Source: Betaproteobacteria bacterium (GTDB lineage Bacteria > Pseudomonadota > Gammaproteobacteria > Burkholderiales > Rhodocyclaceae). Taken from it: a stretch of 64,000 nucleotides of DNA. This document shows, piece after piece, positions 23,001-28,079 of this stretch. Both the position numbers and the translations under genes were made by a program. Each line of letters opens with the position of its first letter. Position 1 is the stretch's first letter. The stretch spans positions 248,001 to 312,000 of the forward strand of contig JAHRYN010000001.1 in the NCBI GenBank assembly GCA_020621405.1. The letters are read 5' to 3'. The notes beneath the pieces are model-generated. The model was not told where the DNA came from, searched no databases, and saw only the letters and a program-made list of their open reading frames with translations.

Positions 23001-25322
23001 TCAGGCCAGCGCGCGTTGCCCCAGCGCCTGGCTGACCGCGCGGTCGAACATCGGTTCGGAATCGACGATTCGGGCATCGCCGCGCGCGAGCTGCAGCGCA
23101 AGCGCATCGGGCGCGATCGAGGTGGCACGCGGCGACCCGGGATTGGTAAACAGGTAGATGCCGCGCTGCGGGCTCACCCAGTTCAGCCTCATGCGCGCAA
23201 AACTGCCGTCGACCTGCCGGAACTCCACCCAGTCGCCACGTTTGAGTTCGGCCACGCGATCCTGATCCGGGATGTCCAGCGCACCCGCCAGATTCAGCGA
23301 AATGTCATCGAGTTCGAGCCCGTCCTGCTCGAGGCGCTCGCTGACCATTTCCGGCGCAGGTACGTCGTCGTTGGCAGATCGGGCTTCCGGAACCCACTGT
23401 TCGACCGGCGGCGAGCTGGGCGTCGCACCCGGCTTGATCCACTGAGCATGCAGGTCGAACAGTCCGTTCAGCAGCATCAGTTTGTCGGCCGGGTGCGCGC
23501 CAGCCAGGTCGAAGCCCTGATTCAACCGGCGCAGAAGACCTGGCAGCGCCACGACCAGCGCACGTCTCTGGTCTGCATCCGCCTTCGGCTGGACGCTCCA
23601 TATCAGTTCATCGGCGGTGGTCAATGCCTGACGGTAGTCGACCTCCGACTCCGGCCCTGCATCCACCAGGTGACGCAGAAGACGGCGCCAGACGCCATCG
23701 AGCAGACTCTGCACCACGCCCGGCAGCGGCGTACGCAGGCGGTTGTCCATTTCATCGTCGGCAGCCAGCCGTGCCGTCTCGCGCCGAATCCGTTCCTGTT
23801 CGCGCTCGCTGGCGATCCGCGCTGCCGTCTCGGCACGCTGCATTTCGTCGGCTTCGAGCGACACGATGAAGGCTTCGAGATCGGCACTGCACGCCTCGAA
23901 AAGACTCAGATCGCGGTCGAAATCACGCAGGATGCGGTCGACGATGGAGGCGAGCTTGATGTAGAGCGGATCGTCATGCCCGACGTCATGCCCCCAGCGC
24001 ATCATCGACTGCGAGATCAGGTCGAGCAGACGGCGCGCCGGATGTGCCTTGCTGGAGAAGAAGCTGCGGTCCAGCATTGCCACCTTGACCAGCGGAATCT
24101 GCAGGCGCCCGACCAATGCCTTGATCGGGTCGGCGATTTTTGCATCGTCGAAGATGAGATCGAACAGCATCGCGACGATATCGACCGTAATCGCATCGAA
24201 CTGCCCGAGATGGCGTCCAAGTTCCGAACTGCGGAAGTCACGCAACACATTCGTCGGAACGACATTGATAGCCGGGAAGTTCGACGCCGACGCCGACGCC
24301 GTCACTGGCACCATCACGTCAGCGCTTGCCTGCAGGGCACTGAGTGCTTCCAGCACAAAGGGCGATTCGAGGGCAGCCTGTCCGCTGGCGCCAGCAGCAC
24401 CGCCGGCCGGAACCGGCAAGCCCTGGGCTGCCATCTGCCCCTGCACCAGCTGCGACAGCATCGCGTAGATATCGCCATCGACATCGCCGACCGTACCGAG
24501 CCCCTGATGCTCGCCGAACCCCTGGACCGACGAGACACCGAATCCTGGCATCGATGCAGTGAAGTCCTGCGACGGCATTGACGGCGCGCCTGTCGCGGCC
24601 GGTTGAGGCGTCGCAGGACCGGCACTGCGCGCTGCGGCATTGCGGCGGAAACCCCGTCGCAGCCCGGGCAACACGTTCTGGCGCTGCAGACGTACGTTCA
24701 GATCTTGGTAAAGCTTCGACAATTCGCTTGAAATCTGCGATTCGATCGACTGCAGAAGCACCAGCCGCATCTGTACGCTGGCATCCACCTCTTCGCATGC
24801 GGCACGCAGAGCCTGCGCCACGCCCTCGGTGCCGAGGGGATTGTCGCGATCGCTGGTATCCGTCTTACCGAGCAGGGAACCAAGGCGTTGTTCGACGCCG
24901 AACAGTTCCTCGTCGCAGCGCTCCTTCAGCTTCCGGGTCAGTTCGCTGACCGCAAGCTCCTGGGTCAGATCGTCCTCGTCGACAAGGCTCAGCTCGTCCA
25001 GCGACGTCGCGGTGGCGCCTGCGACCTTATCCAGCGGATCACCGCGCACACGCGCATCGAAATAGCTGGTCAGGTAATCAAGGAAGGTCTGTTCGATGCC
25101 GGCCCACTGCTGGCGGGCCTTGCCGCAGGTAAACATGTAGAGATTGCGCTGATCGCGATCGAGCTCCGCCTCAGCTCTCGCCACAAGGTCTTCCTCGATC
25201 TTCTCGAGCATGCCGTGCAACGAATCGCGAAGCCTTCGTATCGTGAAGTCGCGACAATCGTTGATGACCCGCCCCCGTTCAGGCGGTACAGCGTTCAACG
25301 TCGTCTGGGGCACAGCACTCAT
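23001..25322 (-). CDS. DUF1631 family protein under cyclic-di-GMP riboswitch control
   Basis: A 773-residue cytoplasmic protein without membrane segments. Most of its length matches DUF1631: an N-terminal helical part (CRDFTIRRLRDSL; AEAELDRDQRNLYMF), a Pro/Gly/Ala-rich linker around residues 225-330, and a large helical core (LIFDDAKIADPIKALVGRLQIPLVKVAMLD; FFSSKAHPARRLLDLI). The last 100 residues (LKRGDWVEFRQVDGSFARMRLNWVSPQRGIYLFTN) look like a small beta-barrel similar to PilZ, although the RxxxR and D/NxSxxG signatures are not clearly present. The molecular function is unknown. The leader carries a FliA-like promoter, a cyclic-di-GMP aptamer and an AAAGG ribosome binding site six bases from the ATG. 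Confidence 0.88.
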   Translation of the reverse strand: MSAVPQTTLNAVPPERGRVINDCRDFTIRRLRDSLHGMLEKIEEDLVARAEAELDRDQRNLYMFTCGKARQQWAGIEQTFLDYLTSYFDARVRGDPLDKVAGATATSLDELSLVDEDDLTQELAVSELTRKLKERCDEELFGVEQRLGSLLGKTDTSDRDNPLGTEGVAQALRAACEEVDASVQMRLVLLQSIESQISSELSKLYQDLNVRLQRQNVLPGLRRGFRRNAAARSAGPATPQPAATGAPSMPSQDFTASMPGFGVSSVQGFGEHQGLGTVGDVDGDIYAMLSQLVQGQMAAQGLPVPAGGAAGASGQAALESPFVLEALSALQASADVMVPVTASASASNFPAINVVPTNVLRDFRSSELGRHLGQFDAITVDIVAMLFDLIFDDAKIADPIKALVGRLQIPLVKVAMLDRSFFSSKAHPARRLLDLISQSMMRWGHDVGHDDPLYIKLASIVDRILRDFDRDLSLFEACSADLEAFIVSLEADEMQRAETAARIASEREQERIRRETARLAADDEMDNRLRTPLPGVVQSLLDGVWRRLLRHLVDAGPESEVDYRQALTTADELIWSVQPKADADQRRALVVALPGLLRRLNQGFDLAGAHPADKLMLLNGLFDLHAQWIKPGATPSSPPVEQWVPEARSANDDVPAPEMVSERLEQDGLELDDISLNLAGALDIPDQDRVAELKRGDWVEFRQVDGSFARMRLNWVSPQRGIYLFTNPGSPRATSIAPDALALQLARGDARIVDSEPMFDRAVSQALGQRALA

Positions 25323-25411
25323 GATTTACCTTTGCGACCACATCTTGCGGCCGGTAAAGGCTGACACCCGGGCAAAGTCAGATCCGAACGCAATACTCCG
25401 AAGGGTATCAC
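25323..25411 (-). promoter_or_regulatory. Putative expression platform between the cyclic-di-GMP aptamer and the DUF1631 start
   Basis: On the minus strand the segment CUUUGCCC (25370-25377) is complementary to GGGCAAA in the aptamer (25482-25488), and its CUUUGC part also pairs with GCAAAG overlapping the ribosome binding site (25330-25335). A UUCG-capped hairpin follows the aptamer. A UUUACC/GGUAAA stem lies across the initiation region. No U-run terminator is present, so control of translation is more likely than attenuation. Confidence 0.55.
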
Positions 25412-25498
25412 TGCGGCCCCGCTGTCATGGGGCGCACGCGCCCTGTAGACCGGAAACTTTGCGTCCCCACCTTTCGATGGGTTTGCCCTGGTTCAGCA
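25412..25498 (-). promoter_or_regulatory. Cyclic-di-GMP-I (GEMM) riboswitch aptamer
   Basis: The minus strand matches the V. cholerae Vc2 aptamer at the conserved positions. In order: CAGGGCAAACC; a six-pair P1b stem (CCCAUC/GGUGGG) closed by a GAAA tetraloop; GGGACGCAAAG with the ligand-stacking A; UCCGGUCUA forming the tetraloop receptor side; a GGGCGC/GCGCCC helix; and AGCGGGG near the 3' side. It lies in the 234-base gap upstream of the DUF1631 gene, just after a FliA-like promoter on the same strand. Class I cyclic-di-GMP riboswitches with this core bind the second messenger at nanomolar levels. The exact 3' boundary and P1 are approximate. Confidence 0.92.
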
Positions 25499-25518
25499 TC
25501 AATTAGTCATCAGAGCGA

Positions 25519-25545
25519 CTAACGGCGGCTCAGCCAGAAACTTTA
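25519..25545 (-). promoter_or_regulatory. Sigma-28 (FliA) type promoter of the riboswitch-DUF1631 transcript
   Basis: On the minus strand TAAAGTTT (25545-25538), 11 bases, then GCCGTTAG (25526-25519). The classic flagellar consensus is TAAAGTTT-N11-GCCGATAA, so the -35 is 8/8 and the -10 is 6/8 with exact spacing. Initiation would fall near 25512, just ahead of the aptamer. Confidence 0.8.
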
Positions 25546-25556
25546 TTAGGGATAGT

Positions 25557-26414
25557 TCAAATCTGCAAGGTAGAGATGATCGAATCCAGCTCTTCCTTTG
25601 ATTCGACCACCACCGCCTCCAGCGTTTCGTTGTCGATGTCCGAGGTCGCAGCGTCGGCTATGAGTCTTTCGTCAAGGGACGAGGTGTTGCTGAACGGGTT
25701 CGGGAATGCCGCCATGCTTTCCGCAAGGAACAGCACGTCAGCGAAGGTCCGTGGCGGCACCACGGCACCGTCGATCGACGAATCATCAACCGCGGCCATG
25801 ACCTGCTCGGGCACCTTCAGCGATTCCAGCACGGCACGGCCAACGCTGTGACTGAAGCTGTACATCAGACCGCCAATCTCGGCCTCGCGCTGCAACAGAG
25901 CCGGAAAGGCGGATGCACGCGCCAGCAGGTAGAACTGACCGATCTCGTGCACAAGCCCGACGAACATCGCGGTATCGGCGTTCAGGCGCGACAGGCGACG
26001 TGCAATCACGTAACACAGCGCCGAAACATGAATGGTGTGCTGCCACAGGTCATGCGTAAGCACGCGCAGACGCTCGTCGGCTCGCGCGTCCACCATCTGC
26101 CGCACGATGAGCGACACGGTCAGCATGCGGATCGGCTCGGTACCGACGCGATTCACGGCAGTGCGTACATCGCTGATTTCATTGCCACTTCGATTGTAGG
26201 CAACGGAATTGGCCAGGCGCATGGCCTTCGCACTGAGTACCGGCTCGGCCCCGACAAGCCGTGCCACCTCGTTGATGTTGATGTCGGGATTCTCCAGCGC
26301 CTGGCGAATACGCAGCGACACATCGATGCTGGTCGGAAAGACGATGTCGCCTGATTCCAACTCGGCGGACAATCGCTGCAAGGCTTCAAGAGATGCGTTC
26401 ACCGGCTCACCCAT
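25557..26414 (-). CDS. HDOD-domain signalling protein
   Basis: A 285-residue protein consisting mainly of an HDOD domain, an HD-related fold that has lost most metal ligands and acts in signal transduction. Typical features are PTSIDVSLRIRQALENPDININEVARLVGAEPVLSAK near the N-terminus, RLANSVAYN, and a central FVGLVHEIGQFYLLA segment (the HD-like site reads HE). It has no output domain. The ATG at 26414 has GGAG nine bases upstream and is preferred to 26447. It lies directly upstream of the cyclic-di-GMP-controlled DUF1631 gene on the same strand, and a weaker FliA-like element precedes it, so both may belong to the motility regulon. Confidence 0.9.
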   Translation of the reverse strand: MGEPVNASLEALQRLSAELESGDIVFPTSIDVSLRIRQALENPDININEVARLVGAEPVLSAKAMRLANSVAYNRSGNEISDVRTAVNRVGTEPIRMLTVSLIVRQMVDARADERLRVLTHDLWQHTIHVSALCYVIARRLSRLNADTAMFVGLVHEIGQFYLLARASAFPALLQREAEIGGLMYSFSHSVGRAVLESLKVPEQVMAAVDDSSIDGAVVPPRTFADVLFLAESMAAFPNPFSNTSSLDERLIADAATSDIDNETLEAVVVESKEELDSIISTLQI

Positions 26415-26806
26415 GACATGTTCTCCGTTGCACGCAGGTGCGTGCATCTGATTCGATGTTCACGTTTACGGCATGATCCGGCACCGACTTGACCCTCGCC
26501 CCCGCTTTGCTGAGGCTCCGCGACGAAACGCCACAATCGGTACGCGACGGCTCCGAACGCCACAACGAGGGCGGCGCGTGAAGCACATTTGCGCGCCGCA
26601 GCTGGGTTGTCATGCAGCGGGAAGATGCCGCCGACTGCCCCCTGTCCCGGCAGCATCCTCGATCGGACCATGAGCCAATCCGGGCCGATCACGATCTTCG
26701 GCGGGCGGGTGGGGCGACAGGCAGCACGTCCGGCCACAAGCCGGAAGTAATTCAAAACTATATAGACTGGGCAGGCTTTAGCCATTCACCTGTTGTCGGA
26801 GTTCCC
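26415..26806. other. Intergenic region between divergent HDOD and sialyltransferase-like genes
   Basis: No convincing gene. The left part holds the possible FliA-type element of the HDOD gene. The right part (from about 26750) is AT-richer and includes TATATA at 26759-26764, a possible -10 for the plus-strand gene. Open frames on both strands in the middle lack family features and look like high-GC noise. Confidence 0.45.
26465..26492 (-). promoter_or_regulatory. Weak sigma-28-like promoter of the HDOD gene
   Basis: On the minus strand TCAAGTCG (26492-26485), 12 bases, then GCCGTAAA (26472-26465). TCAAG-type -35 boxes are used by FliA in some pseudomonads; the spacer is one base longer than the classic form. 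The predicted start lies about 45 bases before the ATG. Confidence 0.4.
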
Positions 26807-27989: not shown

Positions 27990-28079
27990 TGGCGGAGAGG
28001 GCGGGATTCGAACCCGCGTTAGGTTTTCACCTAAACACGCTTTCCAGGCGTGCGACTTAAACCACTCATCCACCTCTCC
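27990..28079 (-). tRNA. tRNA-Ser (GGA anticodon)
   Basis: Read on the minus strand this is a complete class II tRNA of 90 bases including an encoded CCA. The acceptor stem is GGAGAGG/CCTCTCC with discriminator G. The anticodon loop CTGGAAA has anticodon GGA for UCC/UCU serine codons. There is a long variable arm (TTTAGGTGAAAACCTAA) as expected for serine, and a GGTTCGAATCC T-arm. A terminator follows. Such tRNA genes are common integration sites, but no integrase or duplicated end is visible nearby. Confidence 0.97.

Follow-up and report, generated by a model that had tools for sequence, protein, structure and literature searches.

A c-di-GMP-I riboswitch and a putative FliA promoter in the leader of a DUF1631 gene of the Rhodocyclaceae

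The DUF1631 locus and its leader

The window, by which we mean the whole 64,000-nucleotide stretch analysed, carries on its minus strand a gene for a 773-residue protein (23001..25322) whose leader consists, in order, of a sigma-28-like site, 21 nt, a class I cyclic-di-GMP (c-di-GMP-I) aptamer and a further 86 nt before the gene begins at 25322. The protein belongs to DUF1631, as had been predicted: it matches PF07793 over residues 14-768 at 530 bits against a cut-off of 33.7, and is the single such match in the host genome. The original prediction had the elements of this leader right, but its end coordinate, 25412, misses the last 3 nt of the aptamer, which runs to 25409. The upstream neighbour on the same strand is an HDOD-domain gene (25557..26447; PF08668, 108 bits) that stops 11 nt short of the -35 box, and read-through from it into the DUF1631 leader is possible. 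By a scan of named genomes with an alignment of DUF1631, the window belongs to Methyloversatilis (Betaproteobacteria): the loci L064-L072 are 71-79% identical, eight of the nine bear that name and the ninth, L067, groups with them. Elsewhere in the window, a tRNA match with a long variable arm (27993-28079, minus strand) is, judged by its shape, probably a serine or leucine tRNA.

The aptamer (25409..25497, minus strand) was expected to keep the core of the Vc2 riboswitch, and several lines of evidence agree. A covariance search with RF01051 matches 25497-25409 over the full model (1-87) at 65.5 bits (gathering score 35; E 1.4e-10), and a second covariance model, R1, built from 23 family aptamers of which the window's is one, scores it at 80.9 bits. 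G20 and C92 (Vc2 numbering), which we take to be ligand contacts, are present in the window and invariant in 49/49 aptamers of the DUF1631 relatives. Variants of the cGAMP type carry A at position 20, and the G found there in the window and in all 49 relatives is that of the c-di-GMP type. In an alignment of the 49 aptamers that was fitted to the model, 95.0% of cells at paired positions are paired and both partners have changed in 13 of 21 pairs (0 of 500 shuffles), giving covariation support for the paired elements. In the window a G-A mismatch takes the place of the outermost P1 pair (R1 structure), a standard pair in 48/49 relatives. Together, the covariation and the invariant contact bases say that the aptamers upstream of DUF1631 are under selection. 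As for other riboswitches, one of the two further ones in the host genome (L003:1502-1584) best matches the c-di-GMP-I-GGC variant RF03167 (60.4 vs 59 bits), and a single genome of the class sample described below, G287, holds 21 RF01051 matches.

Upstream of the aptamer, the minus strand at 25545-25519 reads TAAAGTTT-N11-GCCGTTAG, with a -35 box (25538..25545) identical to the sigma-28 (FliA) consensus at 8/8 positions, a -10 box (25519..25526) matching GCCGATAA at 6/8 and GCCGWTAA at 7/8, and the exact spacer of 11 that had been predicted. Sigma-28 promoters usually start transcription about 7 nt after the -10 box, which would place the start here at 25510..25514. It is the sole match to TAAAGTTT-N11-GCCGWTAA at up to three mismatches within the window, where 0.09 are expected and 9/100 shuffles contain at least one, so that the TAAAGTTT-N11-GCCGATAA motif stands above chance. 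The host genome encodes FliA (275 bits) and holds 26 matches to the pattern, against 14 for a reversed control pattern. Three of these have a single mismatch, the DUF1631 site among them, and the sites of flagellin and motA have two each. Good matches precede or surround flagellin, motA, a ycgR-like PilZNR-PilZ gene and two chemotaxis receptors, and further ones lie at a fimV-like gene and at the gene of a GGDEF-EAL response regulator; the last of these and the site at one receptor have three mismatches, and the assignments to motA and the ycgR-like gene assume an internal start 3′ of the site. Some other matches fall within genes or ahead of unrelated ones and are presumably noise. Among eight Methyloversatilis sites with an N11 spacer, mean identity is 0.79 in the -35 box and 0.82 in the -10 box versus 0.44 in the spacer. 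The rarity of the motif, its matches at flagellar genes, the presence of fliA and the conservation of the boxes over the spacer make the call of a putative FliA promoter a good one, in keeping with the class of promoter first proposed.

The same scan bears on the make-up of the regulon. A one-mismatch site (L144; G000:C4:305029-305055), 46 nt ahead of a frame that encodes a FimV N-terminal domain (PF25800), hints that the polar landmark protein FimV may be in the flagellar regulon. The ycgR-like gene also has a one-mismatch site (L145) and the GGDEF-EAL response regulator the three-mismatch one (L162), and several c-di-GMP parts may therefore belong to the FliA regulon.

Conservation of the aptamer and the FliA-like site

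The R1 model places the aptamer ahead of DUF1631, in the same orientation, at 49 of the 80 named loci scored, which were the best 80 of 145 relatives, and at least three of the 31 without it (L074, L112 and L122) have almost no upstream sequence. It is likewise upstream in 17/30 family loci, one of which is the window itself (L004) and another of which scores only 37 bits (L063). In a family sample of 121 genomes, which overlaps in genomes with the named loci and in which at most 33 RNA candidates per genome were scored, an RF01051 match lies 124-397 nt upstream of DUF1631 in 19 of the 62 genomes bearing that gene, and these 19 are drawn from 124 riboswitch matches. Across a class sample of 185 genomes the adjacency was found in 0/58 DUF1631 genomes besides the window's, while 13 of the 58 hold both a riboswitch and DUF1631 at separate places; the genomes of the sample are mostly drafts, searched with at most 22 RNA and 5 protein candidates scored per genome, and some pairs may be missed. 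Within that coverage, a class-wide association was not found. Being frequent among named and family loci and absent from the rest of the class sample, the association is strong but, as far as these genomes indicate, a feature of this lineage.

A protein tree made by a quick method (49 rows, a few of them long) shows the aptamer to either side of its midpoint root and in the majority of its larger branches, but not in that of Aromatoleum and Azoarcus; the distribution needs at least nine changes. The building of A4 passed over 12 to 17 loci, which lacked complete open frames or were otherwise omitted. Two tandem DUF1631 genes or frames stand behind a single riboswitch at L110, L123 and L140, and in G053 and G106 (L051 and L052).

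The gene that precedes the aptamer-DUF1631 pair differs from locus to locus, being an acyl-CoA dehydrogenase, QueG, an FMN oxidoreductase or an HDOD gene, and the upstream proteins of 43 loci cluster into five groups of two or more and three singletons. Since the downstream gene is kept while the upstream gene changes, the riboswitch would most simply be DUF1631's own regulator. The persistence of the aptamer beside one gene family in such differing contexts also argues against a role in trans or as a sink for c-di-GMP, in which it would leave DUF1631 uncontrolled. That idea draws on the massively expressed c-di-GMP riboswitch RNA of the FliA-dominated programme of Bdellovibrio, merRNA, which lacks a conserved downstream reading frame (PMC3627812), and for the present locus we regard it as very improbable.

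The FliA-like site has a narrower distribution. Its score, in which either A or T counted as a match for the fifth base of the -10 box, a choice made after the sites were seen, is at least 13 for 13 of the 49 loci (the window and 48 named ones, with L076 dropped for its short upstream sequence) and lower for the other 36, against 0/2674 random windows and 1/2880 shuffles. The 13 loci are nine of Methyloversatilis, L094, L096, L123 and L081 (Candidatus Desulfobacillus denitrificans), and all 10 Methyloversatilis loci, window included, score at least 12. An additional good site, at 13 of 16, occurs at the family locus L050. In the comparison of related genomes that the original prediction proposed, the aptamer is kept but the FliA site is not general, nine of its 13 occurrences being in one genus. 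Nor does the site accompany c-di-GMP-I riboswitches at large, an idea we reject: among 28 other aptamers (33 aptamer loci minus the window, L008 and L032, which are at DUF1631, and L014 and L034) none reaches 13 and two reach 12.

Three genomes with no FliA match over the cut-off (G043, G085 and G090, the last 86% complete and so less surely devoid of fliA) keep the riboswitch and have no FliA site. Together with the patchiness of the site, this makes c-di-GMP control look like the common layer and FliA control like a lineage-specific one, gained or kept in about five lineages. Among the family genomes, DUF1631 itself is carried by 5 of the 13 that have no FliA match over the cut-off, some of these 13 being incomplete, and by 57 of the 108 that have one; DUF1631 as an obligate flagellar protein is not supported.

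These genomes also bring up the reading in which the riboswitch is real and FliA is not its driver, the site at the window being a chance match or relic and transcription coming from the HDOD gene or from a sigma-70 promoter. Other promoters would have to serve in the three genomes just named, the HDOD gene lies within 11 nt of the site, and the reversed pattern has 14 matches in the genome against 26. The uniformly high scores of the Methyloversatilis loci, the excess conservation of the boxes and the recovery of known flagellar genes by the pattern speak against it, and we consider it improbable. Use of FliA is the reading carried forward here.

Expression platform and the sign of control

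Between the aptamer and the start lies an element that the original prediction did not describe, a predicted hairpin (25329..25360, minus strand) in which CCUUU pairs with the Shine-Dalgarno (SD) sequence AAAGG. The pairing is predicted in 10 of the 11 Methyloversatilis leaders compared, several of which are near-identical and three identical at the hairpin, the exception being L069; in L069 and L072, U-A replaces an inner C-G pair. In four loci outside Methyloversatilis (L088, L091, L142 and L143) the platform is only 13-48 nt. Terminator-like structures, scored as a T-rich octamer after a hairpin of -10 kcal/mol or lower, occur in 7 of 47 leaders, with Methyloversatilis at 0/7 and L066 and L071 outside the scan. 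The SD hairpin, the short platforms and the scarcity of terminator-like hairpins make translation the likely level of control. Termination as a general mode was set aside on these counts, and it may apply in some lineages.

The sign of control was approached by comparing the predicted openness of the SD with the aptamer enforced and with the leader free to fold. Openness falls in 23 leaders, rises in 6 and stays within 0.05 in 15, for a total of 44, with L085, L093, L099, L101 and L117 outside the test because their start was not settled or they were left out. In a control with shuffled platforms, 11 of 19 leaders fell further than all but at most one of 20 shuffles; these 19 were picked after the 44-leader result, nine of them are Methyloversatilis besides the window, and many are close relatives. 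The window, L070, L103 and L089 went in the opposite direction. For the window leader, openness changes by +0.09 with the Rfam pairs, 17 of 20 shuffles being as low, and with the R1 pairs by -0.06 to +0.12 according to the stretch folded, rising in four of six stretches. Enforcing the aptamer in this leader costs 18-20 kcal/mol, which makes an equilibrium model a poor judge of a switch that would act co-transcriptionally. A predicted anti-aptamer pairing of UUUGCCC with GGGCAAA, seen in the minimum-energy fold of the window leader, was dropped because L068 and L070 do not conserve the segment.

Folding across the family thus weakly favours an OFF switch, in which c-di-GMP would lower translation, over an ON switch; folding of the window leader by itself does not show OFF. 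An ON switch of the same anatomy would have FliA make the mRNA in swimming cells and c-di-GMP open its translation, confining the protein to a brief overlap between swimming and settling. Class I c-di-GMP switches of the ON type exist, Vc1 and Bc1 being examples, and the window leader tends that way with both sets of pairs, but the 6 of 44 leaders that rise are set against 23 that fall, and we think an ON switch rather unlikely. The sign also decides how the two inputs relate. The original prediction placed the gene under two opposite lifestyle signals, and the folding, with 23 leaders less open against 6 more open and the window mixed, does not establish this. If c-di-GMP represses, both inputs would confine expression to the motile state, and the signals would agree.

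A proposed role for DUF1631 and its relation to known systems

The DUF1631 protein gives few clues of its own. An AlphaFold2 model (mean pLDDT 83, pTM 0.60) is helical over residues 14-635 and ends in a C-terminal barrel at about 684-755, which modelled alone has a pLDDT of 84. The structural neighbours of the barrel are the TraI translocation-signal domain (Z 8.7, rmsd 3.0, 72 aligned) and Tudor domains (Z up to 7.5), and in the model it is a small barrel of the Tudor/SH3/TraI-like kind, a common fold that shows no function. Foldseek gave no match to the C-terminal domain at E ≤0.001, and sequence searches found no solved relative, the best E values being 0.95 (A1) and 1.1 (A6). A PilZ identity for this domain is rejected by profile, since none of 49 members matches the PilZ profile within the 17 families that were listed up to an E of 10; PilZ is likewise absent among the VIA structural rows listed, which excludes nothing. 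What does suggest a role, possibly in surface or motility behaviour, is the company of regulatory elements, a FliA-like site of the sort found at ycgR-like, receptor and motA genes joined to a c-di-GMP aptamer.

Building on the aptamer, the promoter-like site, the fliA gene of the genome and the joint conservation of aptamer and DUF1631, we infer a mechanism in which c-di-GMP is bound, FliA is used and translation is controlled. RNA polymerase carrying FliA would start at a point some 14 nt from the aptamer, leaving a leader that is nearly all riboswitch; the nascent leader would bind c-di-GMP; and the bound or free state of the aptamer would decide whether the SD of DUF1631 is held in its hairpin. 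With c-di-GMP lowering translation, the protein would be made in swimming cells with low c-di-GMP, and settling would shut DUF1631 off in two ways. We judge this scheme, in which FliA makes the DUF1631 mRNA and c-di-GMP shuts off its translation, to be somewhat probable. Counted against it are the P1 mismatch, the mixed folding of the window leader, the proximity of the HDOD gene and the 36 of 49 loci whose FliA score is below 13.

A component of the motile-to-sessile switch is what DUF1631 was first suggested to be, and it probably does have a real part, so far unstudied, in deciding between swimming and settling. More tentatively, and with something short of even confidence, we propose that in the Rhodocyclales DUF1631 acts as an effector, as yet unrecognised, of the passage from motile to sessile life. 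It would be governed by a shared translational c-di-GMP riboswitch that is kept even where fliA is not clearly present, to which swimmers such as Methyloversatilis would have added FliA, so that one gene is gated by two keys, the flagellar sigma factor and low c-di-GMP. In the literature searched, no function is assigned to this large protein family, and DUF1631 appears as a gene-table entry in the passages on it. No link between DUF1631 and a riboswitch was found among the matches listed, which leave subscription papers mostly outside and a prior report possible, and the matches listed for c-di-GMP riboswitches with FliA or the Rhodocyclaceae do not report this association. What is new is that the aptamer travels with DUF1631 across relatives. 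A riboswitch kept with DUF1631 across much of a family would be strong genetic evidence for a c-di-GMP role and a first handle on the protein, and the FliA-riboswitch series, which occurs in a cultured genus (Methyloversatilis), would offer a clean natural case of a sigma factor for swimming and a messenger for settling that meet on one mRNA.

Relevant comparisons come from four systems. Like the GEMM-I (RF01051) riboswitches of the Vc2 type, the aptamer matches the model over its full length and above the gathering score, keeps the core with G20 and C92, and shows covariation; it differs in standing before DUF1631 and, in the window, in one P1 mismatch. In Clostridioides difficile a class I c-di-GMP riboswitch lies upstream of the flgB operon, which encodes the flagellar sigma factor. 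There too a class I aptamer couples motility to c-di-GMP, but the riboswitch stands above the sigma-factor operon, whereas here a putative sigma-28 site stands above the riboswitch. The YcgR-type brake likewise places a c-di-GMP effector in the motile programme, and the PilZNR-PilZ gene of the host genome has an equally good FliA-like site; unlike YcgR, which senses c-di-GMP as a protein, DUF1631 would sense it, if at all, through its mRNA. The attack phase of Bdellovibrio brings the FliA regulon and a c-di-GMP riboswitch RNA, merRNA, together in one motile phase, and merRNA has been proposed as a c-di-GMP sink (PMC3627812). The likeness lies in a FliA programme that runs together with a c-di-GMP riboswitch; merRNA is a stand-alone RNA with no FliA entry in the table consulted (PMC3627812), whereas at the locus described here a protein gene follows the aptamer.
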